The notes below the pieces were generated by a model, which ran no database searches, was not told the DNA's origin, and was given only the letters and a program-made list of their open reading frames with translations. Positions 11,076-36,231 of a DNA stretch of 41,568 nucleotides are shown piece by piece; the stretch's first letter is position 1; every line of letters begins with the position of its first letter. The DNA is from Bacteroidaceae bacterium (lineage in GTDB: Bacteria > Bacteroidota > Bacteroidia > Bacteroidales > Bacteroidaceae). A program made the position numbers and the translations under genes. Location: positions 1 through 41,568 of the forward strand of contig JAFSVI010000014.1 of assembly GCA_017445145.1 (NCBI GenBank), read 5' to 3'.

Positions 11076-11106
11076 TTTGTTATGTGTGACAAAATGGCTA
11101 ATTTTG
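11076..11106 (+). promoter_or_regulatory. Promoter of the sulfonation operon
   Basis: TTTG (11076-11079), a 19-nt spacer and TAATTTTG (11099-11106) fit the Bacteroidota consensus exactly. The -7 element is 32 bp upstream of the permease start. No further consensus promoter was found before cysN or the downstream genes, so it probably drives the operon at least to the sulfotransferase gene. Confidence 0.85.
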
Positions 11107-11138
11107 CACCGCATTTTCCATGTCAACGCATTGAAACA

Positions 11139-12800
11139 ATGACCTTCCCAGCTCTATACGTAACCCTCGTGCTCGTGTTCATGCTCGTGGCATTGATGCG
11201 CGAATGCCTGCGACCAGGACTAATACTGTTCACGGCCGTCGTGCTTCTGCTCGTGGCAGGCATCATCAGCCCCGAGGAGGCCATCAAGGGCTTTTCCAAC
11301 AAGGGCATGATCACCGTGGCCCTGCTGTACCTCGTCTCGGAGGGTGTGCGCAAAAGCGGCGTGCTCGAGCGCATCGTGTTCCGCATGCTGCCCAAGAAGA
11401 ACGCCACCATCACCAGCGCCGGCCTGCGCTTCTACCCCATCGTGACCTTCATCTCGGCATTCTTCAACAACACCCCCGTCGTGGTCATCTTCGCACCGAT
11501 GATCAAGAACTGGGCGCGCAAGATGAAGCTTCCACCCACCAAGTTCCTCATACCTCTCTCCTACGCCACCGTCATCGGAGGCGTGTGTACCCTCATCGGC
11601 ACCACCACCAACCTCGTGCTCCACGGCATGCTGCTGCAGGAGTACAAGGAAGAGACCGTGGCCGTGGCCGAACATGGTGCCGCCGAGGGCATCCTCATGC
11701 GCTTCGGCATAGACGGCATGTCGATGTTCGAGCTCACGAAGGTGGGCATCGTCATCGCCGCGGTGGGGCTCATCTACCTCATCTTCTGCTCGCGCTACCT
11801 CCTGCCCGACGAGCGGCACTCCGACGAGGAAGCTGCCGAGGAGGACATCGCCCCCGGCATGATACGCCACGAGATACTGCTTGGCAACCGTTTCCCGGGG
11901 TTGGGAAAGACGCTCCACGACTTCGACTTCTACCGCCACTACGGCGCACACGTGCGCGCCATACGCCGCAACGGCGTCATCCAGCCCAAGGACTACATGC
12001 ACACACGCATGACCCACGAGGACACGCTCATCGTCGATGCCGACGAAACGTTTATGAAGGCATGGGGCGAGAGCCGTGTGTTCTGGATGATCAACCGCGT
12101 GGGCGACTACGAGCCGCCCATGGGCAAGAAGAAACGCTTCATGGCCCTCGTGCTGCTCATACTCATGATCATCGGCGCCACCGTGGGCGAGCTGGAACCT
12201 GTCAAGCAGATGCTGCACGAGTCGGAATTTGTGCAGACACACATGCCGGCGCTGCGCCTGGACATGTTCTTCTTCGCATGCGTCACGGCCATCATCATGG
12301 CGTGGACACGCATGTTCTCGCCACGCAAGTACACCAAGTTCTTCTCTTGGGACGTGCTCATCACCATAGCCTGCGCCTTCGGCATCTCCACCGCCATGAC
12401 CAAGAGCGGCTTTGCCAACATCGTTGCCGGCCACATCATTGCGCTGACCGACATCGTGCGAGGCTCGGACTACGGCATATACATCATCCTCGCCGCATTG
12501 TTCCTCATCACCAACATCTTCACCGAACTCATCACCAACAACGCCGCAGCAGCACTCGCCTTCCCACTGGCGCTCGCCGTGAGCGAGAAGCTCGGCATGA
12601 ACCCCATGCCATTTGTCGTGTGTGTGTGCTTCGCCGCCAGCGCCGCCTTCTCCACGCCCATAGGCTACCAGACCAACCTCATCGTGCAAGGCATCGGCGG
12701 CTACAAGTTCAAGGACTTCCTGCGGGTGGGCCTGCCCATGAACATCATCGTGTTCGTGCTCTCCGTGGTGCTCATACCCCTCTTCTACAACCTGCGATGA
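11139..12800 (+). CDS. SLC13-family permease, probable sulfate transporter
   Basis: A 553-residue inner-membrane transporter of the SLC13/DASS ion-transporter group. Two signature repeats are visible: FFNNTPVVVIF (about residue 109) with GTTTNLVLHG (about 154), and TELITNNAAAALAF (about 462) with STPIGYQTNL (about 505). A cytosolic TrkA-C type domain occupies about residues 240-307. I start it at ATG 11139 because the promoter's -7 element lies between the earlier in-frame ATG (11061) and this one. Its stop overlaps the cysC start by 4 bp. Sulfate as substrate is inferred from the coupling to cysC, cysD and cysN; other anions are possible. Confidence 0.88.
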   Translation: MTFPALYVTLVLVFMLVALMRECLRPGLILFTAVVLLLVAGIISPEEAIKGFSNKGMITVALLYLVSEGVRKSGVLERIVFRMLPKKNATITSAGLRFYPIVTFISAFFNNTPVVVIFAPMIKNWARKMKLPPTKFLIPLSYATVIGGVCTLIGTTTNLVLHGMLLQEYKEETVAVAEHGAAEGILMRFGIDGMSMFELTKVGIVIAAVGLIYLIFCSRYLLPDERHSDEEAAEEDIAPGMIRHEILLGNRFPGLGKTLHDFDFYRHYGAHVRAIRRNGVIQPKDYMHTRMTHEDTLIVDADETFMKAWGESRVFWMINRVGDYEPPMGKKKRFMALVLLILMIIGATVGELEPVKQMLHESEFVQTHMPALRLDMFFFACVTAIIMAWTRMFSPRKYTKFFSWDVLITIACAFGISTAMTKSGFANIVAGHIIALTDIVRGSDYGIYIILAALFLITNIFTELITNNAAAALAFPLALAVSEKLGMNPMPFVVCVCFAASAAFSTPIGYQTNLIVQGIGGYKFKDFLRVGLPMNIIVFVLSVVLIPLFYNLR

Positions 12801-13396
12801 CCATGACAAGAAACATATACCCCATATATGACAAGATGATGACCCGCGCCGACAAGGAGGCACTGCTCCACCAGCGCGGCATGATGATATGGTTCACGGG
12901 CCTCAGCGGCTCGGGAAAGAGCACCATAGCCCTCGGCGTGGAACGCGAGCTACACGCACGGGGCTTGCTGTGCCGCATCCTCGACGGCGACAACATCCGC
13001 AGCGGCATCAACGCCGGGCTGGGCTTCAGCGCCGACGACCGCCGCGAGAACATACGGCGCATAGCCGAGGTGGGACGCCTGTTTGTGGATACGGGCATCA
13101 TCACCCTCGCAGCATTCGTCTCCCCCACAGAGGCATACCGCACCATGGCACGCACCATCATTGGCGACGCCGATTTCCACGAGGTGTATGTCAGCACACC
13201 GCTCGACGAATGCGAGCGGCGCGACGTGAAAGGCCTCTATGCCCGCGCACGGCGTGGCGAGGTGAAGGACTTCACAGGCATCAGCGCACCCTTTGAGCCA
13301 CCCACACGCCCCGCCCTCGACATCGACACCTCGCGCCAGCCGTTGGAAACCAGCGTGGAACAGGTGGTGGAACTGATAATGAAGCACCAGCAATAG
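12797..13396 (+). CDS. cysC: Adenylylsulfate (APS) kinase
   Basis: A 199-residue kinase that phosphorylates APS with ATP to PAPS, the universal sulfonate donor. The P-loop is GLSGSGKS (residues 35-42); DGDNIR follows the typical strand, and the region FSADDRRENIRRIAEV matches the APS-binding part. The ATG at 12797 overlaps the permease stop (ATGA), and the whole frame from it is in register with the kinase domain; an in-frame ATG two codons later is equally possible. There is no PAPS reductase gene nearby, which fits use of PAPS for sulfonation rather than reduction to sulfide. Confidence 0.96.
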   Translation: MTMTRNIYPIYDKMMTRADKEALLHQRGMMIWFTGLSGSGKSTIALGVERELHARGLLCRILDGDNIRSGINAGLGFSADDRRENIRRIAEVGRLFVDTGIITLAAFVSPTEAYRTMARTIIGDADFHEVYVSTPLDECERRDVKGLYARARRGEVKDFTGISAPFEPPTRPALDIDTSRQPLETSVEQVVELIMKHQQ

Positions 13397-13456
13397 TCGG
13401 CATGCGCGCGCCACGGGCCTGAGACGCGCACCAATCCCGAACACCAACATACCTCA

Positions 13457-14368
13457 ATGAATACAAGCTATCATCTTTCACATCTCCAGGAACTCGAAGC
13501 CGAGAGCATACATATCATCCGCGAGGTGGCGGCCGAGTTCGAGAACCCCGTGATGCTCTACAGCATCGGCAAGGACAGCAGCGTCATGGTGCGTCTGGCC
13601 GAGAAGGCATTTGCCCCTGGCAAGGTGCCTTTCCCGCTCATGCACATAGACTCGAAATGGAAGTTCCGCGAGATGATTGAGTTCCGCGACACCTACGCCC
13701 GCCAGCATGGCTGGAACCTCATCGTGGAGAGCAACTTGGAAGCCTTCCGCGCCGGAGTGGGTCCCTTCACCCACGGCTCGAAAGTCCACACCGACCTGAT
13801 GAAAACCAAGGCACTGCTCGACGCGCTGGCAAAGTACAAGTTCGACGCTGCCTTTGGTGGCGCACGGCGCGACGAGGAGAAAAGCCGCGCCAAGGAGCGC
13901 ATCTTCTCCTTCCGCGACCAGTTCCAGCAATGGGACCCCAAGAACCAGCGCCCCGAGCTGTGGGACATCTACAACGCACGCATCCACAAGGGCGAGAGCA
14001 TACGCGTGTTCCCCCTCTCCAACTGGACAGAACTCGACATCTGGCAGTACATACGCCTCGAGAAGATACCCATCGTGCCGCTCTACTATGCCAAGGAACG
14101 CCCCTGCGTGGAGATCGACGGCAATATCATCATGGCCGACGACGACCGACTGCCAGAGAAATACCGACCCCTCGTGCGTCCGCGCATGGTGCGCTTCCGC
14201 ACACTGGGCTGCTGGCCTCTCACGGGAGCCGTGGAGAGCAATGCCACAACCATAGAGGAAATAGTGGAGGAGATGATGACCACCACCAAGAGCGAACGCA
14301 CCACACGTGTCATAGACTTCGACCAGGAAGCATCCATGGAGCAGAAGAAGCGAGAAGGCTACTTCTAA
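13457..14368 (+). CDS. cysD: Sulfate adenylyltransferase subunit 2 (ATP sulfurylase)
   Basis: A 303-residue catalytic subunit that forms APS from ATP and sulfate. The PP-loop motif SIGKDS is at residues 36-41; [33 protein letters not shown] and the C-terminal [12 protein letters not shown] match CysD closely. It works with the GTPase subunit CysN, which is normally encoded directly downstream; here a 4.4-kb helicase gene separates the two. The 95-bp spacer after it is C/A-rich and shows no promoter. Confidence 0.97.
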
Positions 14369-14463
14369 CCCAGCCTCCCCCATACCACTCCCACACCACT
14401 TCCACACCACTCCCACACAAACGCCCAGACACACCACAACGCCCAACACCACCCTGCCACACT

Positions 14464-17400
14464 ATGAACGACGACACCACCACCGCCCAAGCAACCCCCA
14501 CCACCCCCACCGCCCCATCAACAAGGAGTGTCCCCGTTGGAGGCGGCTCTGCCGCCGACCCTGCCACCACCACCACCGCCCCATCAACAAGGAGTGTCCC
14601 CGTTGGAGGCGGCTCTGCCGCCGACCCTGCCGCCACCACCACCGCCCCATCAACAAGGAGTGTCCCCGTTGGAGGCGGCTCTGCCGCCGACCCTGCCGCC
14701 ACCACCACCGCCCCATCAGCAGGGAGTGTCCCCGTTGGAGGCGGCTCTGCCGCCGACCCTGCCGCCACCACCGACACCGCCGACGAGGCCGCCCTGCAAA
14801 TCGACGAGCGCCAGCTCACGCGCCTCGCGCTGTGGGAGCGTAAGCTCCTGGACTTCAGCCTCCGCAACAACCTCCTCAACACCCGCCTCGGCAAACGCGC
14901 CCTGCAGTTTGCCGCCTTCGACATCGCAACCCTCGAGGACCACCTCCACAGCGGTGTCAACTACACCATAACCCCCTGGCCAGAAAAACGCAAGAAGCAC
15001 GAACCCACGCAGGGCATATACCACACCGCAGCCTACGACCCCGACCTGCGCCCCGACTACGAAGCCGCCATCAAGGCCCACCAGCTACCCACCTACCTCT
15101 CGCAGGTAGAGCTGAAGCCCGTGGTGACAAACCTCTACCGCGCCGCACGCACGGCGCTGGAGGAAAACGGCGCCAACGCCCTCTTCATAGCCCTCGGCAT
15201 GCTACGGTGGTACGTCACCGACCGCAGCGACCAGCCACGCTATGCACCCATTCTGCTGCTGCCCGTGAGCCTCGTGCGCAACGGCGCCGGCTATGTGGTG
15301 CGTCTGCGCGAGGAGGAACCCATGCTCAACATCACCCTCAACGAGTTCCTGCGCCAGCAGTACAAGCTGCAGCTGCCAACGTTCGAACCACTGCCCCGCG
15401 ACGACCACGGCATCGACGTCGCCGCCGTGTTCCAGGCCATGCGCCAAGCCATCGCCGGCAACGCCCGCTGGGAGGTCCACGAGGAAGGCATCCTCGGGCT
15501 GTTCTCGTTCAACAAGTTCGTGATGTGGAACGACATATACACCAGCTCCGACATCCTCCAGGAGAGCCCTATCGTGAAAAGTCTCGTGCAGCAACGCCTC
15601 ACGCTGGAACAGCCCACCGACGACATCGACGTGCATGAGTTCGACCTCACGGAGCCGCCATCGGCAGTGGCCACGCCCATCAGCGTGGATAGCTCGCAGC
15701 TCGAGGCCGTCATCGACAGCGGCGAGGGCAAGAGCTTCATCCTCTACGGCCCTCCTGGCACGGGCAAGAGCCAGACCATCACCAACATGATTGCCAATGC
15801 CCTGTACCAGGGACGGCGTGTGCTCTTCGTGGCCGAGAAGATGGCGGCACTCAGCGTGGTGCAGAAACGTCTGGCCAAGATTGGCCTCGACCCCTTCTGC
15901 TTGGAGCTGCACTCCAACAAGGTCACCAAAACCCACTTCCTGCAACAGCTGGATCAGGCGCTCAACGTCACCCACGGCCACCTCAGCGAGAGCTTCGAGC
16001 AGCGCTCCTCAGAGCTTTTCGCCAAGCGCAAGCAACTCAACAGCTACATCCAAGCCGTGCACAGGCAGAGCCGCTACGGTGTCTCCCTCTACGACTGCAT
16101 AGAGCATTTTCTCGACACGCCCGGCGACAAGCAACTGCAGCTCGCCGTCAGCGCCATCAATAACCTCGACGAGCAGCTGCTGCAAGACGCAGTAGCCATA
16201 CTGCAGGACCTCGACACAGTGTTCCAAGTCTCAGGACACCCATGCGAGCACCCTCTCGCCGGGTTCAGGCCCCTCAGCGACCGGCGTGAGAGCCTGGAAC
16301 GGCTCTGCCAGAAGCTCGAAGAGCTCGCGCAGCTGTTGCCGCAGATGGAGGAGGCACGCCAGCAGCTCAACGCCACATGCGGCGTCACCGTGCCCGCCAC
16401 ACAGGAAGGCTTCACATGGATGCTTAGCTTCACCGAACTCCTCGAATACTGCTCTGCCAAGGCACTGGCAGAGGACGCCACGACGCTACGCGCGGAATGG
16501 CAAGCCGTGCAGCAGAAATGGTTCCTGCCAAGGTACTTCGCCACACGTCGCATCCTCAAGCGCATACGTGCCTACAGGCCCGGCATCGAGGAGCCGACGA
16601 TAGACCTGTTCATCAACAAACTGGCCGTCCACGAGATAGAAAGCATTGGCATGGACATCAACGAATTGGCCATAGCCAGCCACTACGACAGCATCCCCTC
16701 GGGGCCGAAAGCCTGGGCGAAGAAGAACCGGGAGGTGCTCACGCAATGGCAAAGCCTGCTCAATGACATAGCGCCGCTATGCGAGCTGCCCTGGCACGAC
16801 GACTATGCCAACACCCTGGCCCGCAGCATATCCTCTTGGCTGCAGCACCGCGAGCAGATGCAGTCGTGGTTCCAATGGGTCGAACAGCGCGAGCTTCTCA
16901 CGGAGCAGCGGCTCACAGATGTCGTGGCATTCATCGAGCAGGGCAACAGCGCCAACGATGCCGCCGCCGCCCTGCAAAAGGCGGTGTACAAGGAATGGGC
17001 ATTGCGGCTCATCGACGACGACGACCTCCTGCGACGCTTCAGCGGCATCACCTTCGAGGACGTCATCAGCCGCTACCGCCAGCTCACCGACCATTTCCAG
17101 GAACTCACGAAGAAAGAGCTTTACTGCCGCCTCGCCGCCAACATACCATCGCTCACCACACAGGCCGCCACCAACTCCGAGGCCGGCATCCTCAAACGCA
17201 ACATCGCCAACGGCGGACGAGGCACCAGCATACGCCACATCATAGACCAGATCCCCAACCTGCTGCCACGACTGTGCCCATGCATGCTCATGAGTCCCAT
17301 CAGCGTGGCACAGTTCCTCGACCCCAAAAGCCCCAAGTTCGACCTCGTCATCTTCGACGAGGCATCGCAGATGCCCACCTCCGAAGCCGTGGGCGCCATA

Positions 17401-18897
17401 GGCCGCGGCAAGGCGCTCATCGTCGTGGGCGACAACAAGCAGATGCCCCCGACGGCCTTCTTCACCACGCAGCAGGTCGATGACGACGATGCACAGTATG
17501 ACGACCTCGACAGCATCCTCGACGACTGCAAGGCGCTCTCCATGCCGGAACGCTATCTCGCCGTGCACTACCGCTCCAAGCACGAGTCGCTCATCACCTT
17601 CTCCAACCAGGAGTACTACGACAGCCGCCTGGCGACATTCCCGTCGGCCGACGACCGCCTCTCGAAAGTGTCGGTGCAGTATGTGCAAGGCACCTACGAC
17701 AAGGGTGGCCGACGCAGCAACCGCGCCGAGGCCGAAGCCGTGGTCGAGGAAGTGATAGCACGCCTCCAGGACCCCGAACGCTCGCAGCGCAGCATAGGCG
17801 TCGTGGCATTCTCCATGGCGCAGCAAAACCTCATCGAGGACATTCTCATGGAGACACTGGCCGGGAAGCCCGACCTCGAGGCACGCGCCTTCCAGTGTGA
17901 GGAACCCATCTTCCTCAAGAACCTGGAGAACGTGCAGGGCGACGAGCGCGACATCATCCTCTTCAGCATAGGCTACGGCCCCGACAGCAACGGCAACGTA
18001 TCGCTCAACTTCGGCCCGCTCAACAACCGAGGCGGCGAGCGTCGCCTCAACGTGGCCGTCACGCGTGCGCGTTATGAGATGAAGGTATTCTCCACCCTGC
18101 ACCCCGAACAGATCGACCTCAACCGCTCCAAGGCCGTCGGCGTGGCGGGTCTGAAGAAATTCCTGCTCTACGCCGAGACTGGGCAAATCATGGAAACCAC
18201 CACCGACGGCACCACGGCCCCGGCGACCGACACCATGGCCCCGGGCGCCGCCACCGACGCCGTAGCTGCCGACATCGCCGACGCACTCACCGCACTGGGC
18301 TACCGCACGGAGACGGGCGTGGGGCGCTCGCAGTTCAAGGTCGATGTGGCAGTGCTCGACCCTGCCGACCCCGAACGCTACCTCCTCGCGCTGCTCATCG
18401 ACACCCCCACCCGCGCGGCAACGCGGACAGCGCGCGACCGCGACCTCACGCAGCCATCCGTGCTGCAGGGCCTCGGCTGGAAGGTGGCACGCCTGTGGAG
18501 CATCGACTGGTTGCAACACCGCCAGCGGGTCATAGACACCATCGTGAGCCACATCGACGGCAGCGCACCACAGGACAAGAGCGCCACGCTCACGCTGAGG
18601 GAACCCACCATCGTGGCCAACCGCACACAAACCATGCGCCCGGCAGCCATTGCCGCTGGCACGGGCGCCAAACGCGACATCGCCTCAATACCTGCCGGGC
18701 AAATCGATGAGGCTGTGATGCAGGTCGTGCAGGACCAGGTGGCACTCTCCGTCGATGACATACGCCTGGCCGCCAACCGCCTCATGGGTTACTCGCGGCG
18801 CACCATGCGCATCGACAACGCCATCACGCGCAGCGTGGCACGCCTCGTCGCCAGCGGCAGGGTCATCCGCGACGGCGACATCATCAAAGCCAAATAA
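14464..18897 (+). CDS. DUF4011 superfamily 1 helicase with Vsr-like and DUF3320 domains
   Basis: A 1477-residue protein. Order: a low-complexity N-terminus with four 22-residue repeats (about 17-104); DUF4011 from about residue 118 (LWERKLLDFSLRNNLLN); Q-motif DSSQLEAV and Walker A GPPGTGKS (about 428-435); DEAD-like box FDEASQ (about 962) with VVGDNKQMPP; LNVAVTRAR motif (about 1197); a Vsr/REase-like domain with putative catalytic Asp1294 (FKVDVAV) and TARDRD; and DUF3320 (about 1415-1476). Relatives are SF1 helicases of the DNA2/COG1112 type, some of them in anti-phage systems. Its place between cysD and cysN is odd; no own promoter is visible. Start ATG 14464 is the only plausible one. 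Function unknown. Confidence 0.88.
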   Translation: MNDDTTTAQATPTTPTAPSTRSVPVGGGSAADPATTTTAPSTRSVPVGGGSAADPAATTTAPSTRSVPVGGGSAADPAATTTAPSAGSVPVGGGSAADPAATTDTADEAALQIDERQLTRLALWERKLLDFSLRNNLLNTRLGKRALQFAAFDIATLEDHLHSGVNYTITPWPEKRKKHEPTQGIYHTAAYDPDLRPDYEAAIKAHQLPTYLSQVELKPVVTNLYRAARTALEENGANALFIALGMLRWYVTDRSDQPRYAPILLLPVSLVRNGAGYVVRLREEEPMLNITLNEFLRQQYKLQLPTFEPLPRDDHGIDVAAVFQAMRQAIAGNARWEVHEEGILGLFSFNKFVMWNDIYTSSDILQESPIVKSLVQQRLTLEQPTDDIDVHEFDLTEPPSAVATPISVDSSQLEAVIDSGEGKSFILYGPPGTGKSQTITNMIANALYQGRRVLFVAEKMAALSVVQKRLAKIGLDPFCLELHSNKVTKTHFLQQLDQALNVTHGHLSESFEQRSSELFAKRKQLNSYIQAVHRQSRYGVSLYDCIEHFLDTPGDKQLQLAVSAINNLDEQLLQDAVAILQDLDTVFQVSGHPCEHPLAGFRPLSDRRESLERLCQKLEELAQLLPQMEEARQQLNATCGVTVPATQEGFTWMLSFTELLEYCSAKALAEDATTLRAEWQAVQQKWFLPRYFATRRILKRIRAYRPGIEEPTIDLFINKLAVHEIESIGMDINELAIASHYDSIPSGPKAWAKKNREVLTQWQSLLNDIAPLCELPWHDDYANTLARSISSWLQHREQMQSWFQWVEQRELLTEQRLTDVVAFIEQGNSANDAAAALQKAVYKEWALRLIDDDDLLRRFSGITFEDVISRYRQLTDHFQELTKKELYCRLAANIPSLTTQAATNSEAGILKRNIANGGRGTSIRHIIDQIPNLLPRLCPCMLMSPISVAQFLDPKSPKFDLVIFDEASQMPTSEAVGAIGRGKALIVVGDNKQMPPTAFFTTQQVDDDDAQYDDLDSILDDCKALSMPERYLAVHYRSKHESLITFSNQEYYDSRLATFPSADDRLSKVSVQYVQGTYDKGGRRSNRAEAEAVVEEVIARLQDPERSQRSIGVVAFSMAQQNLIEDILMETLAGKPDLEARAFQCEEPIFLKNLENVQGDERDIILFSIGYGPDSNGNVSLNFGPLNNRGGERRLNVAVTRARYEMKVFSTLHPEQIDLNRSKAVGVAGLKKFLLYAETGQIMETTTDGTTAPATDTMAPGAATDAVAADIADALTALGYRTETGVGRSQFKVDVAVLDPADPERYLLALLIDTPTRAATRTARDRDLTQPSVLQGLGWKVARLWSIDWLQHRQRVIDTIVSHIDGSAPQDKSATLTLREPTIVANRTQTMRPAAIAAGTGAKRDIASIPAGQIDEAVMQVVQDQVALSVDDIRLAANRLMGYSRRTMRIDNAITRSVARLVASGRVIRDGDIIKAK
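14511..14774 (+). repeat. Minisatellite of four 66-bp units inside the helicase gene
   Basis: Units begin at 14511, 14577, 14643 and 14709, exactly 66 bp apart, and are nearly identical; the fourth changes Thr-Arg to Ala-Gly. Each encodes 22 residues containing RSVPVGGGSAADPA. Each unit holds a small perfect hairpin, GGCGGC-TCT-GCCGCC. Unit length is a multiple of three, so copy number can change without a frameshift. Confidence 0.95.
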
Positions 18898-18927
18898 CGA
18901 CATCCACACACAAACCCCATCTCATAT

Positions 18928-20427
18928 ATGAGCCAACCTTCAACCAACGACACCACCAAGTCACTTGACATACGCTCCTACCTCGATGCCGACGAGCGCA
19001 AGGACCTGCTGCGGCTGCTCACCGCCGGCAGCGTCGATGACGGCAAGTCAACACTCATAGGCCGTCTGCTCTACGACTCCAAGAAACTCTACGACGACCA
19101 GCTGGCAGCCCTGGAGCGCGACTCCAAGCGTGTGGGCAACGCGGGCGACAGCATCGACTATGCCCTGCTGCTCGACGGCCTCAAGGCCGAGCGCGAGGAG
19201 GGCATCACCATCGACGTGGCCTACCGCTACTTCTCCACCAACCGCCGCAAGTTCATCATCGCCGACACCCCGGGCCACGAGCAATACACCCGCAACATGA
19301 TCACCGGCGGCTCCACGGCCAACCTCGCCATCATACTCATCGACGCACGCAAGGGCGTCATCACGCAGACACGACGCCACACCTTCCTCGTCTCGCTGCT
19401 CGGCATCAAGCACATCGTGCTGGCAGTGAACAAGATGGACCTCGTCGGGTTCGACCGCAACGTGTTCGACGCCATCGTGGCCGACTACCGCGCACTCACC
19501 GACCACCTCGGCATTGACGACGTGACATGCTTCCCGCTGTCGGCTCGCGACGGCGACAACGTGGTGCGCCACAGCCCACGCACGCCGTGGTACGAGGGTC
19601 CGGCGCTGCTCGACTTCCTCGAGACGGTGCCCATACATGCCGACCGCAACTTCAGCGACTTCCGCTTCCCTGTGCAGTATGTGGTGCGCCCCGACCTCAA
19701 CTTCAGGGGCTTCGCCGGCAAGGTGGCCAGCGGCGTGGTGCGCGTGGGCGACACAGTCATGGCATTGCCCAGCATGAAGAGCAGCCGCGTGAAGGAGATA
19801 CTCACGCCCGGAAGCGGCGAGCTTGTGAGCCATGCCAACGAGGCTTTCCCCCCGCAGTCCGTCACCATCACCCTCGAGGACGAGATAGACATCAGCCGCG
19901 GCGAGATGCTCGTCCACCCCGACCGCCCGGACCAAGGGGACGCTGCACAAAGCAAGAACCTCCCGCACATCGGGCGCCTCTTCACCACCATGCTTGTTTG
20001 GATGGACGAGGAACCCATGAACACCGACAAGCAATTCTTCCTCAAGCACAACACCAACACCACACGTGCCACCATAGCGGCCATACGCCACCGCATAGAT
20101 GTCAACACACTTGAGAAGAAGGAGGGCAAGCCCTTTCAGCTCAACGAAATAGGTCAGGTGGATATACACACCGCCAAGACGCTGTTCTTCGACGCATACT
20201 CCGACAACCGCCAGACGGGCGCCTTCATACTCATCGACCCCATCACCAACAACACCTCCGCTGTGGGGATGATACTCGCGCCGATAGACGAGGACACCCT
20301 CGCCAGCGACGACGTGCCAACCCTCGACCTGCCGCGCCTCGGCATCACGGCCGAACACTATGACGCCGTGGAACGTGCCGTGCGCGACCTCTCACGCCAG
20401 GGCATTGAGGTGAAGCTCATCAAGTAA
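18928..20427 (+). CDS. cysN: Sulfate adenylyltransferase subunit 1 (GTPase)
   Basis: A 499-residue EF-Tu-like GTPase that drives APS formation by CysD. G1 is GSVDDGKST (residues 34-42), G3 is DTPGHEQ (about 111-117) and G4 is NKMD (about 168-171). Domains 2 and 3 follow, with the RGEMLVH and VWMDEEP segments of CysN. No C-terminal APS kinase is fused, consistent with the separate cysC upstream. It starts 30 bp after the helicase stop and is followed 21 bp later by the 5-alpha-reductase gene. Confidence 0.97.
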
Positions 20428-20448
20428 CCACACAGCCGCAACGCCACC

Positions 20449-21225
20449 ATGCCCATCCTCTCCCCCACCCTCTTCAGCCAGCTCATCAACGTCATGCTCG
20501 CCATGGCTGCCGTGGTGTTCGTGAGCCTCTATTTCGTCAATGCCGGCTACGGGCAGTTCCGCACCAAGCACTGGGGGTGGAGCATCGACAACCGCGTGGC
20601 ATGGGTGCTGATGGAAGCGCCGGTGTTCTGCGTCATGCTCGCCATCTGGATGCAGACAGGACACCCGCTCCACGTGCCGGAGCTGGTGCTCTTCGCCATG
20701 TTCCAGCTTCACTACTTCCAGCGGAGCTTCATCTTCCCTTGGCTCATGCATGGCCACAGCCGCATGCCCGTGGCCATCGTGGCCATGGGGGCTCTGTTCA
20801 ACACCATCAACGGCATCCTACAAGGCGGGGCACTCTTCTGGTACCCCAACCCCGACTATGCCGAAGGGGCATCGTATCTGACCAGCTTCCAGTCCGTCGC
20901 CGGCCTCGCGCTCTTCGCCGCTGGCATGGCCATCAACCTCCACTCTGACCACGTCATACGCCACCTGCGCCAGCCCGGCGACACGCGCCACTATCTGCCA
21001 TCGCGAGGCTACTACCGCCTCGTCACCAGTGCCAACTACTTCGGAGAGCTCGTGGAGTGGATTGGCTTTGCCGCCGTGGCCGACACGCTGGCAGCATGGG
21101 TGTTCCCCATCTGGACCGCTGCCAACCTCGTGCCTCGCGCGCACGCGATATATAATAAGTACCGCACGGAGTTCGGAGCTGCCGCCCTCGCAGGGCGCAA
21201 GCGCATCATTCCATTCATATACTGA
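20449..21225 (+). CDS. Steroid 5-alpha-reductase (SRD5A) family protein
   Basis: A 258-residue polytopic membrane enzyme strongly resembling animal SRD5A1/2, which reduce the C4-C5 double bond of 3-oxo-4-ene steroids with NADPH. Conserved blocks: LHYFQRSF (Tyr89), GMAINLHSD, the RxLRxPGD-like segment HLRQPGDTRHY, SANYFGELVEWIGFA (about residues 193-207) and a terminal IIPFIY. Glu56 (LMEAPV) and Tyr89 match, as recalled, Glu57 and Tyr91 of human SRD5A2, which hold the steroid 3-ketone. The place between cysN and a sulfotransferase argues for a sterol or steroid substrate, probably host or dietary since the bacterium should not make steroids. An unrelated lipid substrate remains possible. Confidence 0.88.
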   Translation: MPILSPTLFSQLINVMLAMAAVVFVSLYFVNAGYGQFRTKHWGWSIDNRVAWVLMEAPVFCVMLAIWMQTGHPLHVPELVLFAMFQLHYFQRSFIFPWLMHGHSRMPVAIVAMGALFNTINGILQGGALFWYPNPDYAEGASYLTSFQSVAGLALFAAGMAINLHSDHVIRHLRQPGDTRHYLPSRGYYRLVTSANYFGELVEWIGFAAVADTLAAWVFPIWTAANLVPRAHAIYNKYRTEFGAAALAGRKRIIPFIY

Positions 21226-21285
21226 ACCCACAACGGCTCACCACCACACACCGTCACCCGCCACAAACGAAATCCACACACACCA

Positions 21286-22395
21286 ATGGGCCTACTGAAA
21301 TTCGACAAGCTGCCTGTATATCCCCTCGTCGGCGCCGACTGGGCAACGCTGCAAAGCATCACTTCCCGCTGGCATGACGACCCGCAGTTCCGCACCAAGA
21401 TGCTCGCCACGAAGGCCATCTGCCGACTGCTCTCGCTGGCGGCACCCATACAGGAGCGGCGCTACGACCGCCTGCTGCGCAACAAGCCCATCGACCACGA
21501 CCCGCTGTTCATACTCGGACACTGGCGCTCGGGCACCACATTCGTACACAACATCTTCGCACAGGACTGCCACTTCGCCCACACCTCAACCTACCAGACC
21601 GTGTTCCCACACATGATGATGGTGGCGCAGCCGGTCATGAAGTTCATTATGAAGCTCTTCATACCGAGCCACAGACCCACCGACCGCATGGAGCTGACAC
21701 CCGACACACCGCAGGAAGAGGAGTTCGCACTGAGCAACTCCATGCCCTACTCCTACTACAACTTCTGGTACTACCCCAAGGACCAGCTGGATCTCTGCGA
21801 CAAGTACCTCACCTTCGAGCACATCACCCCCGAGGAGAAACGTGCATACCAGGAGGCCTTAGAGAAGATTGTCAAGATCTCCATCTGGAACACCGGGGGC
21901 ACACAGTACCTCTCCAAAAGCCCGCCACACACGGGCCACGTGCAGGCCCTCGTGGAGATGTTCCCCAACGCCAAGTTCATCTACCTCATGCGCAACCCCT
22001 ACACCGTGTTCGAGAGCACACGCTCGTTCTTCACGCAGACCATAGCACCGCTCAAGGCGCAGGCCATCAGCGACGACGACATCGAGATGAACTGCATACG
22101 CGTCTATCCTCGCCTCTACAATGCCTACCAGGAGCAGAAGCGCTTCATCCCCGATGGCAACCTCTACGAGGTGCGCTTCGAGGAGTTCGAGCGCGACGCC
22201 TACGCCGTCACCAAAGACATATACCAGAAGCTGCGTCTGCCAGGCTGGGACGAGTCCGAGACCAACATACGAGCCTACATCGACAGCAAACGCGGCTACA
22301 AGAAGAACAGCTACGAGTACAAACCCCGCACCATACAGCTCGTCAACGAGCACTGGGGACGCGCCATCGACGACTGGGGCTATGAGCGCATGTAG
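21286..22395 (+). CDS. PAPS-dependent sulfotransferase, probably steroid/sterol
   Basis: A 369-residue sulfotransferase of the Sulfotransfer_3-like type. The 5'-phosphosulfate-binding loop is HWRSGTTFVHN (about residues 78-88) and the 3'-phosphate-binding region is YLMRNPYTVFESTRSFF (about 233-249). No signal peptide is seen, so it is cytosolic, where CysC makes PAPS. It is the end product gene of the cysCDN operon. Bacteroides thetaiotaomicron has a sulfotransferase in such a context reported to sulfonate cholesterol and flat 5-alpha steroids (recalled, unverified here). A short hairpin (22429-22447) follows. The acceptor is inferred from the 5-alpha-reductase next door; sulfation of a lipid or glycan is the alternative. 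Confidence 0.9.
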   Translation: MGLLKFDKLPVYPLVGADWATLQSITSRWHDDPQFRTKMLATKAICRLLSLAAPIQERRYDRLLRNKPIDHDPLFILGHWRSGTTFVHNIFAQDCHFAHTSTYQTVFPHMMMVAQPVMKFIMKLFIPSHRPTDRMELTPDTPQEEEFALSNSMPYSYYNFWYYPKDQLDLCDKYLTFEHITPEEKRAYQEALEKIVKISIWNTGGTQYLSKSPPHTGHVQALVEMFPNAKFIYLMRNPYTVFESTRSFFTQTIAPLKAQAISDDDIEMNCIRVYPRLYNAYQEQKRFIPDGNLYEVRFEEFERDAYAVTKDIYQKLRLPGWDESETNIRAYIDSKRGYKKNSYEYKPRTIQLVNEHWGRAIDDWGYERM

Positions 22396-22508: not shown

Positions 22509-23177
22509 ATGAAGCACTTACTCACCCTCTTCCTTGCAGTCCTATGCTGCCACAGCGCAACCGCACAAGGCACACAGTACGCCGACCACCTCGACAACAA
22601 GACGCTGCTCGTGTTCGGCGACTCCTACGTCAAGAACCACCGCGAACCCATGGAGCATACCTGGCACTACAAGGCCGCACAGCGCCACAACATGCGCTAT
22701 GCCAACGCCGGGCGCAACGGCTCGAGCATAGCCTTCGACCGCACACGCGACGGCTTCGGACCCTCCATGCTCACCCGCTTGAACGACATCAACATGTCGG
22801 CCGACTACGTCATCGTCATCGCCGGCCACAACGACGCCGACCTCATCAAGGACAGCGCCGACAGCCTCGCCATGTTCCGCGATGCCATGCACCAGCTGTG
22901 CGCACGCCTCACCGACAAGTTCCCCACCGCACGCATCGGTTTCGTCACGCCGTGGAACGTCAACCGCCCCGGCTTCAGGCAGGTCATCAGCACCATCGTG
23001 GAGGTGTGCGGCGAATGGAGCATACCCGTGCTGCGCGCCGACACCGAGAGCGGAATACATGTGCGCTCGGAGGACTTCCGCCAGCGCTACTTCCAGAACG
23101 GCGACACAGCCCACCTGAATGATGCCGGCCACGACCTCATCCTCAACTGGGCCGACCGCTTCCTCACCTCGCTGTAG
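22509..23177 (+). CDS. Secreted SGNH/GDSL-family hydrolase
   Basis: A 222-residue protein with a signal peptide (residues 1 to about 19, ending ATA-Q) and an SGNH esterase fold. Block I is FGDSY with nucleophile Ser39, the Gly/Asn blocks are AGRNGSS and GHND (Asn108), and the Asp-His pair is D199-x2-H202 in GDTAHLNDAGH. It acts in the periplasm or at the surface, typically removing acyl or acetyl groups. It lies 113 bp after the sulfotransferase on the same strand, with no consensus promoter between. Its substrate is unknown; carbohydrate O-acetyl groups are a fair guess given other enzymes in the window. Confidence 0.88.
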   Translation: MKHLLTLFLAVLCCHSATAQGTQYADHLDNKTLLVFGDSYVKNHREPMEHTWHYKAAQRHNMRYANAGRNGSSIAFDRTRDGFGPSMLTRLNDINMSADYVIVIAGHNDADLIKDSADSLAMFRDAMHQLCARLTDKFPTARIGFVTPWNVNRPGFRQVISTIVEVCGEWSIPVLRADTESGIHVRSEDFRQRYFQNGDTAHLNDAGHDLILNWADRFLTSL

Positions 23178-28072: not shown

Positions 28073-30520
28073 ATGCACGCACGCGGATTCCGAAACATCG
28101 CTCTGGCCATCGCCGGAGCCGTGATAGCGCTGACCTCAGAGGCCAGCGCTTTCGTTTTACCGGCCCAACAGCCGGTGACCATCTTCATGGCACAGGACGA
28201 GCAACCCGTGGTACACACAGCGCTGGCACTCCTCACCGCCGATTTCCAGCACGTGCTGGGAGCCACACTCACGCCCGTCTCCGGCATCGAGCGCCAGCAC
28301 ATCATAGCCGGCTCGCTCGACGGCCCCCTGCGTGAGTATTTCTACGCCACGGGCATCGACATGAGCGACCTGGCACAGTCCCCGCAAAGCTTCATGATGG
28401 TCATCGACAACAAGGGGCGCCTCAACATCATCGGCAGCGACGCCGCCGGAACGGCCTACGGCCTCATGGAGGTCTCGCGCATGCTTGGCGTGTCGCCATG
28501 GGAATGGTGGGCCGACGTGGAACCCCAGCCACTCCAGGAGCTCCGCATCAACGACCATTTCACCACTTTCCAGCGCCCCGACGTGTTCTATCGCGGCATC
28601 TTCATCAACGATGAGGACTGGGGGTTGCAGCCCTGGGCTTCCACCAACCACGAGCCTAATGCCGACCATGCCATAGGCCCGCGCACCACGCAGCGCATCT
28701 TCGAACTAATGCTGCGTCTGCGTGCCAACCTCTACTGGCCGCCCATGCACGAATGCACACAGCCCTTCTTCCTCACGGAAGGCTGCGCCGAGCTTGCCGA
28801 GCAATATGGCATCTTCATCGGCACGAGCCACTGCGAGCCCATGGCATGCAACGCCGCCGGCGAGTGGAAAGTGCGCGGCAATGGCAGCTACAACTTCATC
28901 TCCAACCGCCAAGGCGTGACCGCCTTCTGGCAGCAGCGCCTGGCCCAAACGGCCGACATGCCCATGGTATATACACTGGGCATGAGAGGGGTGCACGACG
29001 GCCCCATGGAAGGTGCCAAGAGCGCCGAGGAACAGAAAGACGCACTCGCACAGGTCATTGCCGCCCAACGCCAGCTCTTGGCGGAGAACGTGGACAGCGA
29101 CGTCGCCACCATCCCGCAGGTGTTCATACCGTACAAGGAAGTGCAGGAAGCCTACGACAAGGGCTTGGAGGTGCCCGAGGATGTCACCCTCCTGTGGAGC
29201 GACGACAACTTCGGCTACATACGCCACTTCCCCACCAAGGCCGAACAACAGCGCCCTGGAGGCAACGGTGTCTATTACCACGTCTCCTACTGGGGCCGTC
29301 CCCACGACTATCTGTGGTTGGCCACGGCAAGCCCCTATCTGCTATACCAGCAGCTGTCAGAGGCATACTACCACGGGGCGCAACGCATGTGGGTGCTCAA
29401 CGTGGGCGACATCAAGCCCGCCGAATACCAGATACAGCTCTTCATGGACATGGCATGGGACCTCGATGCAGTGCGACGCCGCACCGTGGGCGGACACATG
29501 GAGGACTTCTACGTCACCAACATCGGACGCGACATAGCACGCCTCACGGCCATCTACATGAAAGACCACTACCACCTCACCTTCCAGCGCAAGCCCGAGC
29601 ACATGGCAGGGACGCGTGTGGAGGAGCCACGCCAAGGCACCAACGACTGGACTGCCGTCAGCGACCTGCCATGGAGCGAGAAGCGCATCCGCGCACGCTT
29701 GGACCGCTACGACAAGCTACAGCGCAACGTGCGATGGATTGCCGACAGCGTGCGCCGCACACACCCCGACCGCTACGATGCCTTCTACCAGCTCGTGGAA
29801 TACCCCGTGCTCGCGGCAGCTGCCATGAACGAGAAGTACCTCGCCGCACAGCTCGCGCGCCACGGCAAGACCTTCTCGCCACGCGACAATGTTGCAGCCA
29901 CATGGCAGCGCAGCGACCAGGCCCACGATGCCATCCAGGAGATGACGAGGCGCTACAACGCCCTGCGCGGCGGCAAGTGGCGCGGCATCATGGACGCCGC
30001 ACCGCGCTCGCTGACGGTGTTCAAGCGCGTGCCCCACAAACAGGTCAAGACCCCGATGCCCGCAGACAAGGCCCTCATCACATCGTTCTACGGTGCGTCA
30101 TACAACAACTCCTCCTTCTCCGGCAACGCCATCCTCGACCCCGTGCTGGGCCTCGGGGCAAGCATCCGCGCCATGCCGCTGCCCAAGGACTGCAACGTCA
30201 GCTACAACTTCAGCCACACCTTCGGCTCCGACCAATACGTTGACATAGAGCTTCACATGCTGCCCACACACCCCATCGACACGCAGCAGCGAGTGACGGT
30301 GCGCCTCGACGCAGGTGCCACAGAAACGCTGACCTACGCCACAGAGGGGCGCAGCGAACAGTGGAAGGAGAACGTGGTGCAGAACTTCGCCACCATCACC
30401 GCACGCATGCCTGTCACCAGCAGCGGCAGCTCACACACCGTCACCATCGGCGCCCTCGACGACGGCGTGGTGCTCGACGAGGTGTTCATCCGCCCCGTGA
30501 GGACGCTGCACGAGCGATAA
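28073..30520 (+). CDS. Glycoside hydrolase family 115 (xylan alpha-1,2-glucuronidase)
   Basis: An 815-residue secreted enzyme with a signal peptide (to about residue 26). GH115 enzymes remove (4-O-methyl)glucuronic acid from xylan and related hemicellulose or gum side chains. Diagnostic stretches: GTAYGLMEVSRMLGVSPWEWW, YRGIFINDEDWGLQPWA, LRANLYWPPMHECTQPFF, LGMRGVHDGPM and LLWSDDNFGYIR, with a C-terminal beta-rich domain from about residue 670. It has no neighbours acting on xylan in the window other than the esterase at 24091. It is close behind secG and may be read with it. Confidence 0.93.
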   Translation: MHARGFRNIALAIAGAVIALTSEASAFVLPAQQPVTIFMAQDEQPVVHTALALLTADFQHVLGATLTPVSGIERQHIIAGSLDGPLREYFYATGIDMSDLAQSPQSFMMVIDNKGRLNIIGSDAAGTAYGLMEVSRMLGVSPWEWWADVEPQPLQELRINDHFTTFQRPDVFYRGIFINDEDWGLQPWASTNHEPNADHAIGPRTTQRIFELMLRLRANLYWPPMHECTQPFFLTEGCAELAEQYGIFIGTSHCEPMACNAAGEWKVRGNGSYNFISNRQGVTAFWQQRLAQTADMPMVYTLGMRGVHDGPMEGAKSAEEQKDALAQVIAAQRQLLAENVDSDVATIPQVFIPYKEVQEAYDKGLEVPEDVTLLWSDDNFGYIRHFPTKAEQQRPGGNGVYYHVSYWGRPHDYLWLATASPYLLYQQLSEAYYHGAQRMWVLNVGDIKPAEYQIQLFMDMAWDLDAVRRRTVGGHMEDFYVTNIGRDIARLTAIYMKDHYHLTFQRKPEHMAGTRVEEPRQGTNDWTAVSDLPWSEKRIRARLDRYDKLQRNVRWIADSVRRTHPDRYDAFYQLVEYPVLAAAAMNEKYLAAQLARHGKTFSPRDNVAATWQRSDQAHDAIQEMTRRYNALRGGKWRGIMDAAPRSLTVFKRVPHKQVKTPMPADKALITSFYGASYNNSSFSGNAILDPVLGLGASIRAMPLPKDCNVSYNFSHTFGSDQYVDIELHMLPTHPIDTQQRVTVRLDAGATETLTYATEGRSEQWKENVVQNFATITARMPVTSSGSSHTVTIGALDDGVVLDEVFIRPVRTLHER

Positions 30521-30571
30521 TTTGTCATTCTACATTATACATCACATATTCTACATTATCATTAAGTACCC

Positions 30572-31897
30572 GTGTTTGAGAATCTATCCGAACGCCTCGA
30601 ACGCTCCTTCAAGATTCTGAAGGGCGAAGGCAAGATTACAGAAATAAACGTAGCCGAGACACTCAAGGACGTGCGACGCGCACTCCTTGATGCCGATGTC
30701 AACTACCGCGTTGCCAAGGACTTCACCGACACCGTGAAGCAAAAAGCTCTCGGGCAGAACGTGCTCACGGCTGTGAAGCCACAACAGATGATGGTCAAGA
30801 TCGTCCACGACGAGCTGGCGACACTCATGGGCGGCGAGACAGCCGACATCAACCTCAGCGGCCGACCCACCGTGGTGCTCATGGCAGGCCTCAACGGTGC
30901 CGGTAAGACCACCTTTGCCGGAAAGCTCGCCAACCTGCTCAAGACAAAGCGCAACCGACGCCCGCTGCTCGCAGCATGCGACGTCTATCGCCCCGCCGCC
31001 GTGGAGCAGCTGCGCGTGCTCGCCGAGCAGATAGCCGTGCCCATACACATGGAACCCGACAGCCAGGACCCTGTGCAGATAGCCCTCAACGCCATACAGG
31101 AGGCACGGGCCAAAGGCTATGACACCGTCATCGTGGATACCGCCGGCCGCCTGGCCATCGACGAGAAGCTCATGCAGGAGATTGCTGCCATCAAAGCCGC
31201 CATCAACCCCGACGAGACGCTCTTCGTGGTCGATGCCATGACGGGCCAGGATGCCGTGAACACCGCCAAGGAGTTCAACGACCGCCTCGACTACACGGGC
31301 GTGGTGCTCACCAAGCTCGACGGCGACACCCGTGGCGGTGCCGCACTGAGCATACGCACCGTAGTGGATAAACCCATCAAGTTTGTAGGCACAGGCGAGA
31401 AGATGGAAGCCATAGACCCCTTCCATCCCGCACGAATGGCCGACCGCATCCTGGGCATGGGCGACATCGTCAGCCTCGTGGAGCGAGCACAGGAACAGTA
31501 TGACGAGGCCGAGGCACGCCGCCTGCAGAAGAAGATACAGAAGAACCAGTTCGACTTCAACGACTTCTACTCGCAGATACAGCAAATCAAGAAGATGGGC
31601 AACATCAAGGACCTCGCATCCATGATCCCCGGTGTGGGCAAAGCCTTGAAAGACATCGACATCGACGACAACGCCTTCAAGAGCATCGAAGCCATCATCC
31701 TGAGCATGACACCCAAGGAGCGCACAAACCCCGAGCTGCTCAACACCAGCCGCCGACAGCGCATAGCGCGAGGCTCAGGCACCGACATTGCCACCGTCAA
31801 CCGCCTTATCAAGCAGTTTGACCAGACACGCAAGATGATGAAGATGGTCACCAACCCGCGCATGGCGCAGATGATGGCACGCATGCCCAGAAGATAG
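30572..31897 (+). CDS. ffh: Signal recognition particle protein Ffh
   Basis: A 441-residue SRP54 GTPase that binds SRP RNA and signal sequences of membrane proteins. N domain from FENLSERLERSFKIL; G1 loop GLNGAGKTTFAGKL; DTAGRLAID (G3); TKLDGDTRGGAALS (G4 and after); M domain in the last 130 residues with RRQRIARGSGT, the RNA-binding motif, and a Met-rich end. It starts at a GTG (30572): no ATG fits the conserved N-terminus. The 51-bp spacer upstream is AT-rich, without a consensus promoter. Confidence 0.97.
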   Translation: MFENLSERLERSFKILKGEGKITEINVAETLKDVRRALLDADVNYRVAKDFTDTVKQKALGQNVLTAVKPQQMMVKIVHDELATLMGGETADINLSGRPTVVLMAGLNGAGKTTFAGKLANLLKTKRNRRPLLAACDVYRPAAVEQLRVLAEQIAVPIHMEPDSQDPVQIALNAIQEARAKGYDTVIVDTAGRLAIDEKLMQEIAAIKAAINPDETLFVVDAMTGQDAVNTAKEFNDRLDYTGVVLTKLDGDTRGGAALSIRTVVDKPIKFVGTGEKMEAIDPFHPARMADRILGMGDIVSLVERAQEQYDEAEARRLQKKIQKNQFDFNDFYSQIQQIKKMGNIKDLASMIPGVGKALKDIDIDDNAFKSIEAIILSMTPKERTNPELLNTSRRQRIARGSGTDIATVNRLIKQFDQTRKMMKMVTNPRMAQMMARMPRR

Positions 31898-31978
31898 ACA
31901 TACACCCTTTCGGCAACATGCCTGCGCTGCCAGCGCCCCCACATACAGCCCCTAACCCCCTAACACCTCCCAACCACA

Positions 31979-32857
31979 ATGACTCTCATCAACGGAAAAG
32001 CCACCGCCACCGCCATCAAGGCGGAAATAAAGCAAGAGGTGGAACACATCATCGCCCAAGGCGGCAAGCGCCCGCATCTCGCCGCAATACTCGTGGGCCA
32101 CGACGGTGGCTCGGAGACATACGTAGCCAACAAGGTCCGCGCTTGCGAGGAATGCGGCTTCCAAAGCACACTGCTGCGCTACGAGGACAGCATCACAGAG
32201 GCAGAGTTGCTGGCATGTGTGGCACGCCTCAACGCCGATGCCGACATCGACGGCTTCATCGTGCAGCTGCCACTGCCCCGACACATCGACGAGCAGAAGG
32301 TCATCGAGGCCATAGACCCGCGTAAGGACGTGGACGGCTTCCATCCCATCAACGTGGGCCGCATGGCAATAGGCCTGCCAGCCTTCGTCAGCGCCACGCC
32401 CAAAGGCATCCTCGAGCTGCTGCGCCGCTATGACGTCAAGACCTCTGGAGCCAAGTGTGTCATCCTCGGCCGCTCCAACATCGTCGGCAAGCCCATGGCA
32501 CAGCTGATGATGCAGAAGGACGGCGGCGATGCCACTGTCACCGTGTGCCACAGCCATTCGCCGCAACTCAAGGACGAATGCCGACAGGCCGACATCATCA
32601 TAGCCGCCATAGGCCGCCCCGCCTTCGTGACAGCCGACATGGTGAAGCCCGGCGCCGTCGTCATCGACGTGGGTACAACACGCGTGGCCGACGCCACACG
32701 CCAGCGCGGCTGGCGCCTGCAAGGCGACGTCGATTTCGACAACGTGGCCCCCCTCTGCTCCTCCATCACCCCCGTGCCAGGTGGCGTAGGCCCAATGACC
32801 ATCTGCATGCTCATGCTCAACACCCTGGCCGCCGCCCGCCACGACTACTACGAGTAG
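31979..32857 (+). CDS. folD: Methylenetetrahydrofolate dehydrogenase/cyclohydrolase
   Basis: A 292-residue bifunctional enzyme interconverting 5,10-methylene-, methenyl- and 10-formyl-tetrahydrofolate. Tyr48 and Lys52 in SETYVANK form the active site; [10 protein letters not shown] and [12 protein letters not shown] are the family blocks, [13 protein letters not shown] is the NADP-binding part, and [10 protein letters not shown] is near the C-terminus. It lies 81 bp after ffh and ends with a strong terminator. Confidence 0.97.
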
Positions 32858-32880
32858 GCCACCTTGCCCACTCACACCGC

Positions 32881-32946
32881 GCACTCCCCACACCCTCGCC
32901 GCGACCTCACCTTGCGTCGCGCGTGTTGGTGTGGGGAGTGCTTTTT
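32881..32946 (+). terminator. Intrinsic terminator after folD
   Basis: A 14-bp perfect stem (32881-32894 with 32928-32941) with a further short inner stem (GCGAC/GTCGC), followed directly by TTTTTC. It is the clearest intrinsic terminator in the window and marks the border between the housekeeping genes and the pectin locus. Confidence 0.9.
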
Positions 32947-33044
32947 CTTTGTCCTTAGGCGCGCTATGGCCTATATTGCGTCACCGTCACACATTATCTC
33001 AACAATATGCGACAAAACCTGAAGCCAATGTGAAGGCAAATGCA

Positions 33045-33052
33045 TACCTTTG
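33045..33052 (+). promoter_or_regulatory. -7 element of the pectate lyase gene
   Basis: TACCTTTG, 34 bp upstream of the PL1 start. No TTTG -33 box is found 19 nt upstream, which would fit a promoter that needs an activator. Confidence 0.6.
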
Positions 33053-33086
33053 CGCCGTCAAATCATATCACACACTTCACACAATC

Positions 33087-36083: not shown

Positions 36084-36182
36084 CGAAGAGCCTTGCAGCT
36101 CCCACATCATGTGAAAGCGCATAATGTTACATTGTGTCATCGACTTGTTACCATCGTGCCACGCCGTTACAGGCATTTGTCG

Positions 36183-36190
36183 TACCTTTG
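36183..36190 (+). promoter_or_regulatory. -7 element of the galactanase gene
   Basis: TACCTTTG, 41 bp upstream of the GH53 start codon. As at the pectate lyase gene, no good -33 box is present at 19 nt, which hints at shared activator control. Confidence 0.6.
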
Positions 36191-36231
36191 CCGCAGATTT
36201 TCCTTAACCATTAACGAATCCATCTTCGGCT

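Follow-up and report, generated by a model that had tools for sequence, protein, structure and literature searches.

Steroid sulfation in Bacteroides thetaiotaomicron involves the importer BT_0412, the products of BT_0413-0415, which synthesize the sulfate donor 3'-phosphoadenosine 5'-phosphosulfate (PAPS), and the sulfotransferase BT_0416, with cholesterol sulfate as a product (Le 2022, PMC9417993); this sulfotransferase, BtSULT, accepts steroids with planar A/B rings, including isoallolithocholic acid (isoalloLCA) and beta-sitosterol (review PMC12667688). A gene set of Bacteroidetes coding for a 5-beta-reductase (5BR), a 5-alpha-reductase (5AR) and a 3-beta-hydroxysteroid dehydrogenase (3-beta-HSDH) turns 3-oxolithocholic acid (3-oxoLCA) into isoalloLCA (PMC12697870, PMC11271093). 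We analysed a stretch of 41,568 nucleotides from a gut Bacteroidaceae bacterium with kin among ruminant Bacteroides (assembly GCA_017445145.1, contig JAFSVI010000014.1, positions 1 to 41,568; hereafter the window), in which a sulfation operon of the BT_0411-0416 kind carries a homologue of the steroid 5-alpha-reductase SRD5A between cysN and the sulfotransferase gene (SULT). It is the 5-alpha-reductase gene at this place that is new in an operon of a known kind; at the level of titles and abstracts, and with subscription papers largely outside reach, the literature on gut bacteria yielded no linked 5-alpha-reductase and sulfotransferase. From the sequence, we favour, with some reserve, the reading that this is a BT_0411-0416-kind operon with a captured 5-alpha-reductase, which would reduce dietary or host steroids and then sulfate them. 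The operon would thereby link two gut steroid pathways that have been described separately, the making of flat 5-alpha steroids and their sulfation, and would offer one testable genetic unit for the coupled reactions.

The operon occupies positions 11076-22395 on the + strand, with all genes behind one Bacteroidota-type promoter:

11076..11106, + strand: promoter, TTTG-N19-TAATTTTG, Bacteroidota-type, beginning exactly at 11076
11139..12800, + strand: anion permease, probably for sulfate, in the position of BT_0412 (Pfam CitMHS, 3e-64; Na_sulph_symp, 4e-18)
12797..13396, + strand: cysC, adenosine 5'-phosphosulfate kinase (Pfam APS_kinase, 9e-61; NCBIfam apsK above cut-off)
13457..14368, + strand: cysD, ATP sulfurylase small subunit (NCBIfam CysD, 490 bits, cut-off 397)
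14464..18897, + strand: DUF4011/superfamily 1 (SF1) helicase with an MTES_1575 nuclease domain (Pfam DUF4011/AAA/MTES_1575)
18928..20427, + strand: cysN, ATP sulfurylase large subunit (NCBIfam CysN, 590 bits, cut-off 336)
20449..21225, + strand: SRD5A homologue, predicted 3-oxo-5-alpha-steroid 4-dehydrogenase (5AR; PF02544 Steroid_dh, 1e-34)
21286..22395, + strand: SULT, PAPS-dependent sulfotransferase, BT_0416-like by operon position (PF13469 Sulfotransfer_3, 4e-40; orthologues in relatives follow cysN)

The gene list, the gene order and the single strand, all given in a first-pass annotation made from the letters of the window, are borne out by the gene calls and the Pfam and NCBIfam matches. 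So is the consensus promoter that it had placed upstream: sites of the form TTTG-N(17-21)-TAATTTTG, which we take to be the Bacteroidota consensus, occur three times in the window versus 0.14 expected, and 0 of 100 shuffles reached three. From permease to SULT, the intergenic gaps are -4, 60, 95, 30, 21 and 60 nt. The first of these is an ATGA overlap between cysC and the permease stop; the cysC start at 12797 is our reading of the sequence, the profile search having been run from 12800. No terminator-like site was detected on the + strand between 12800 and 21286, as the same annotation had noted, in a scan that performed at chance level (8 sites in total, 8.4 expected).

The sulfate importer, the three PAPS synthesis genes and the PAPS sulfotransferase thus form one same-strand run, in the order of BT_0412-0416. 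For this comparison, the individual roles of BT_0413-0415 as cysC, cysD or cysN are our assumption, and BT_0411 presumably encodes CysQ. Work by Yao in 2022, as cited in reviews, reportedly also dealt with the B. thetaiotaomicron steroid sulfation cluster. Unlike that cluster, the window has the 5-alpha-reductase gene between cysN and SULT and the helicase gene between cysD and cysN, and the CysQ gene of its genome (3'-phosphoadenosine 5'-phosphate removal; match above cut-off) sits on another contig (C169), away from the operon. Genomes, loci and contigs are labelled G, L and C, respectively, G000 being the genome of the window.

The permease-cysC-cysD-cysN-SULT core is an already known kind of unit, established in Bacteroides, and it is found repeatedly in the family. 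It was complete in 17 of 20 SULT loci; contig ends truncate L062 and L070, and L069 holds SULT alone. The spacing between cysN and SULT was read in the best 30 of the 45 family genomes with a match, and cysN could be placed in 26 of them. It is at most 154 nt in 23 of these and amounts to 451 unread nt in L036; in the other two, the window and G010, SRD5A lies in between. Across 14 genomes of Bacteroides, Phocaeicola, Mediterranea, Caecibacteroides or Prevotella, 13 contain a SULT match with 57-59% identity, the Prevotella genome having none; in Phocaeicola massiliensis (G080, L073), SULT stands in the same gene order as in the window operon.

The PAPS made by the operon probably serves sulfation, since neither cysH nor a sulfite reductase gene was detected in the draft genome of the window (2.73 Mb, 91% complete). 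Indeed, the only match to PF01507 is the CysD of the operon, so that the earlier remark that there was 'no cysH in sight' holds across the draft genome, and PF01077 (NIR_SIR) has no match in it. As a control, PF01077 matched in 11 of 14 genomes, Bacteroides ihuae being among the three without a match. An ordinary assimilatory sulfate operon, with SULT and the reductase gene as unrelated neighbours, is hardly credible. The products of cysC, cysD and cysN do catalyze the usual first steps of assimilation, but we rejected this assignment on the PF01507 and NIR_SIR results, and SULT follows cysN, directly or past the intervening genes, in the genus loci read.

As proposed by the first-pass annotation, the reductase is by sequence an SRD5A homologue. 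It belongs to a Bacteroidota subgroup, and we file it short of a proven 5-alpha-reductase. Its PF02544 score is 119.9 bits (cut-off 22.6), and it matches the solved PbSRD5A (7c83; E 4e-45, residues 16-257 of 258) and human SRD5A2 (7bw1; E 2e-33), these steroid enzymes being the only solved relatives that the sequence search found. The catalytic pair, E57 and Y91 in human SRD5A2 (PMC7815742), corresponds to E56 and Y89, which all 40 aligned rows share. Ten of the 13 residues given as direct NADPH contacts in PbSRD5A (PMC7815742) are kept, as mapped by eye from the alignment. Both SRD5A and SULT are under purifying selection in the four genomes compared (the window, G178, G010 and G189; six pairs each), with ratios of nonsynonymous to synonymous substitution rates (dN/dS) of 0.08-0.27 and 0.08-0.23, respectively, at a high dS of 0.7-2.0.

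In relatives, the family of the window reductase usually heads a cassette, SRD5A-OYE-SDR, in which an old yellow enzyme (OYE) gene and a short-chain dehydrogenase/reductase (SDR) gene follow, and which resembles the 5BR/5AR/3-beta-HSDH set. We surveyed the best 80 of 573 confirmed SRD5A loci and recovered SRD5A in 78 (the exceptions being L143 and L157): OYE is next to SRD5A in 70 of the 78, and OYE plus SDR in 64. The hosts include Bacteroides, Phocaeicola, Mediterranea, Prevotella and Paraprevotella. The 5BR-like OYE has BaiCD as its best NCBIfam match (E 2e-48, far under the cut-off), and the 3-beta-HSDH-like SDR is a generic short-chain dehydrogenase by profile. PAPS genes are also present in seven of the 80 loci: SRD5A lies inside the operon in L080 and L081, and in L085, L087, L090, L092 and L095 a distance of 4.4-6.5 kb separates the end of the cassette from the permease gene downstream. 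In G078, carA and carB (our gene names) separate the cassette from the permease gene. SULT is also present in 16 of the 17 genomes reached via these SRD5A loci. Note that L082 (RUG367) and L167 (G191) each hold a solo SRD5A outside cassette and operon, with similar neighbours in both.

Unlike the members of the 5BR/5AR/3-beta-HSDH set, the three genes are not adjacent in the genome of the window: SRD5A is in the sulfation operon (C37), and C32 carries OYE and SDR side by side, unaccompanied by a reductase gene. They are 78% and 71% identical to their G078 counterparts. The OYE-SDR pair is likewise adjacent without the reductase gene in G010, G178 and G210; in G152, OYE and SDR are on separate contigs and OYE carries an in-frame TAG. 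The first-pass annotation had proposed a two-step route of 5-alpha-reduction and sulfonation and had pointed to the lack of a 3-beta-HSDH in the window as a gap. The SRD5A homologue, the BT_0412-0416-kind operon, the lack of a detected PAPS sink and the linkage in seven genomes lend partial support to that route. The existence of the OYE-SDR pair on C32 of the same genome makes it probable that the 'missing' 3-beta-HSDH exists and that the C32 SDR fills the gap.

The proposed sequence of reactions is as follows. The reductase would convert a 3-oxo-4-ene steroid into a flat 5-alpha-3-oxo steroid; the C32 SDR, or in related species an extended SDR encoded within the operon, would reduce the 3-oxo group of the 5-alpha steroid to a 3-beta-OH; and SULT would place sulfate on this 3-beta-OH to give the 3-sulfate. 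The presence of the reductase gene inside the operon would couple flattening to PAPS supply and sulfation.

This extended SDR, 512 aa long, is encoded between the reductase gene and SULT in G189 and G168. It matches PF01073 (3Beta_HSD) and also NAD_binding_4 above the cut-off, and contains, by our reading, TGxxGxxG and YxxxK motifs. OYE and a close SDR were not found in these two genomes, the only ones without OYE among the 47 SRD5A-bearing genomes of the genus. Full-length relatives of the extended SDR occur in 4 of the 101 genus genomes (G189, G168, G166 and G164), apart from the operon in G166 and G164. This protein is the strongest hint that the junction between cysN and SULT, hereafter the slot, holds enzymes acting before SULT. 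A weaker hint comes from G231 (L204), where SRD5A finds no match and SULT is faced, at a distance of 34 nt, by a convergent and diverged SDR-OYE pair (33% and 54%). The OYE of G231 carries an in-frame TAG.

SRD5A was found in 47 of the 101 genus genomes, OYE in 50 and SULT in 70, and 45 of the 47 SRD5A-bearing genomes also contain OYE. The slot was read in 66 genus genomes, which together have 67 full-length SULT places (the SULT fragments of G160 and the second one of G181 were excluded). One subclade, spread over 18 genomes, comprises 19 of these places; identity within it is at least 73%, and the next full-length SULT is at most 63% identical. Within it, the slot holds SRD5A alone in five genomes (G000, G178, G152, G010 and G210), SRD5A plus the extended SDR gene at two places (G189, and C33 of G168, where the reductase gene is cut by the contig end) and the extended SDR gene alone at one (C115 of G168). 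SRD5A is thus in the sulfation operon in 7 of the 18 subclade genomes; the two operons of G168 may come from two strains in one metagenome-assembled genome. At the 48 places outside the subclade, SULT always starts within 183 nt of cysN. RUG367 (L251), which lay outside the genus draw, has an empty slot and its solo SRD5A elsewhere.

All six complete reductases of the slot fall into a single group (SH-aLRT 93, below the starred level of 95, in a tree of 95 SRD5A rows whose longest end branch is 1.23), so that a single capture into the slot is likely on the strength of this tree. In the OYE tree, the split OYEs of G000, G178, G191 and G210 join those of L100 and L101 (100, starred), whereas the SRD5A of these two loci fall outside the slot clade; the slot copy may therefore be a replacement, and a simple move of the reductase gene out of its own cassette does not follow from these trees. 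The reductase gene is a late addition to the sulfation operon, and in most relatives the two pathways remain separate.

Several observations weigh against coupled 5-alpha-reduction and sulfation. Three of the 13 NADPH contacts are changed (R34 to Q36, Y177 to H181 and H230 to I234, again mapped by eye), and the QEY motif is incomplete, Q56 being replaced by Met (M55) in 40 of 40 rows; in human SRD5A2, Q56A/L abolished activity (PMC7815742). The same changes would fit a reductase that acts with SULT on a non-steroid lipid, for instance an endogenous isoprenoid or glycolipid, to give a sulfated membrane lipid, and polyprenol and enoyl reductases are likewise members of PF02544. We nevertheless consider such a substrate improbable, given that PbSRD5A and SRD5A2 are both steroid enzymes and that SRD5A of relatives heads a cassette resembling the set that makes isoalloLCA from 3-oxoLCA. 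For the extended SDR, Epimerase is a better match (3e-13 and 8e-14) than 3Beta_HSD (1.5e-7 and 1e-8), and all its domain matches cover only about the first 170 of 512 residues. The SDR swap in G189 and G168 is probably one event, because the two group on the operon tree, and their OYE may be unassembled, the drafts being 87% and 85% complete. SRD5A lies on the contig of OYE in 39 of the 47 genus genomes, and its co-occurrence with SULT in the genus is not significant (37/10/33/21, p 0.08). The corresponding family figure (14/3/31/103, p 3e-6; the weak SRD5A match of G105 left out) is confounded by kinship, and we dropped general co-occurrence as support. Finally, the slot is filled at 8 of the 67 places and empty at 59 (11 of 19 in the subclade and 48 of 48 outside), and its content is patchy in a tree built from the operon's own proteins (rows of L062, L067, L068 and L177 left out), filled slots being scattered among empty ones, which implies repeated loss or lateral exchange.

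The many operons that are complete without SRD5A also agree with a single transcript that serves two independent steroid functions, SULT acting on existing 3-beta-OH sterols (cholesterol, sitosterol) and the reductase serving the OYE/SDR pathway, with the slot as a convenient expression site. BT_0416 alone sulfates cholesterol (PMC9417993), and the five genomes whose slot holds only SRD5A retain OYE and SDR at other sites. We hold this explanation to be unlikely, if the most serious of the rivals, since purifying selection maintains the reductase and since the slot of G189 and G168 has taken up a second, different dehydrogenase gene.

If reduction and sulfation are indeed coupled, the operon could make and silence the same molecule, because bacterial sulfation abolishes the regulatory T cell-inducing effect of isoalloLCA (review PMC13008668). 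As to substrates, relatives from rumen and deer hint at plant sterols no less than at bile acids. Bile enters the gut after the forestomach, which would make plant sterols or stenones as likely as bile acids; a paper on faecal stanols offered no information on rumen enzymes. A tentative extension is that the slot is an exchangeable site for 'phase I' steroid enzymes in one lineage of ruminant-associated Bacteroidaceae, whose compact phase I/II operons would flatten, reduce and sulfate forestomach plant sterols or stenones before bile acids are encountered. Equally tentatively, its possible contents would be the 5-alpha-reductase gene alone, the reductase gene with that of a 3-beta-HSD-like SDR, or the SDR gene alone.

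The DUF4011 helicase is probably a defence-like passenger with no part in the steroid route: it comes close to anti-phage models, with 1452 bits against NCBIfam ProA, under the cut-off of 1500, and 1083 bits against PADLOC PDC-S37. Among the readable subclade operons, 13 of 18 have its gene between cysD and cysN, as does RUG367; it was seen in none of 44 full-length non-subclade loci, many of which are cut within cysC or cysD. Between permease and cysC, G010 carries a 3-keto-disaccharide hydrolase gene (PF06439; L044:12081-13370). Directly 3' of SULT lies a GDSL esterase gene (22509-23177), with the same placement in G178, G152, G221 and G207; since the chance-level scan gave no terminator-like site from SULT up to 23300, the operon transcript may extend into it. 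Further along the window, positions 28073-38073 encode GH115 and GH53 glycoside hydrolases and a weakly pectate-lyase-like protein, which fits a plant-fibre habitat.

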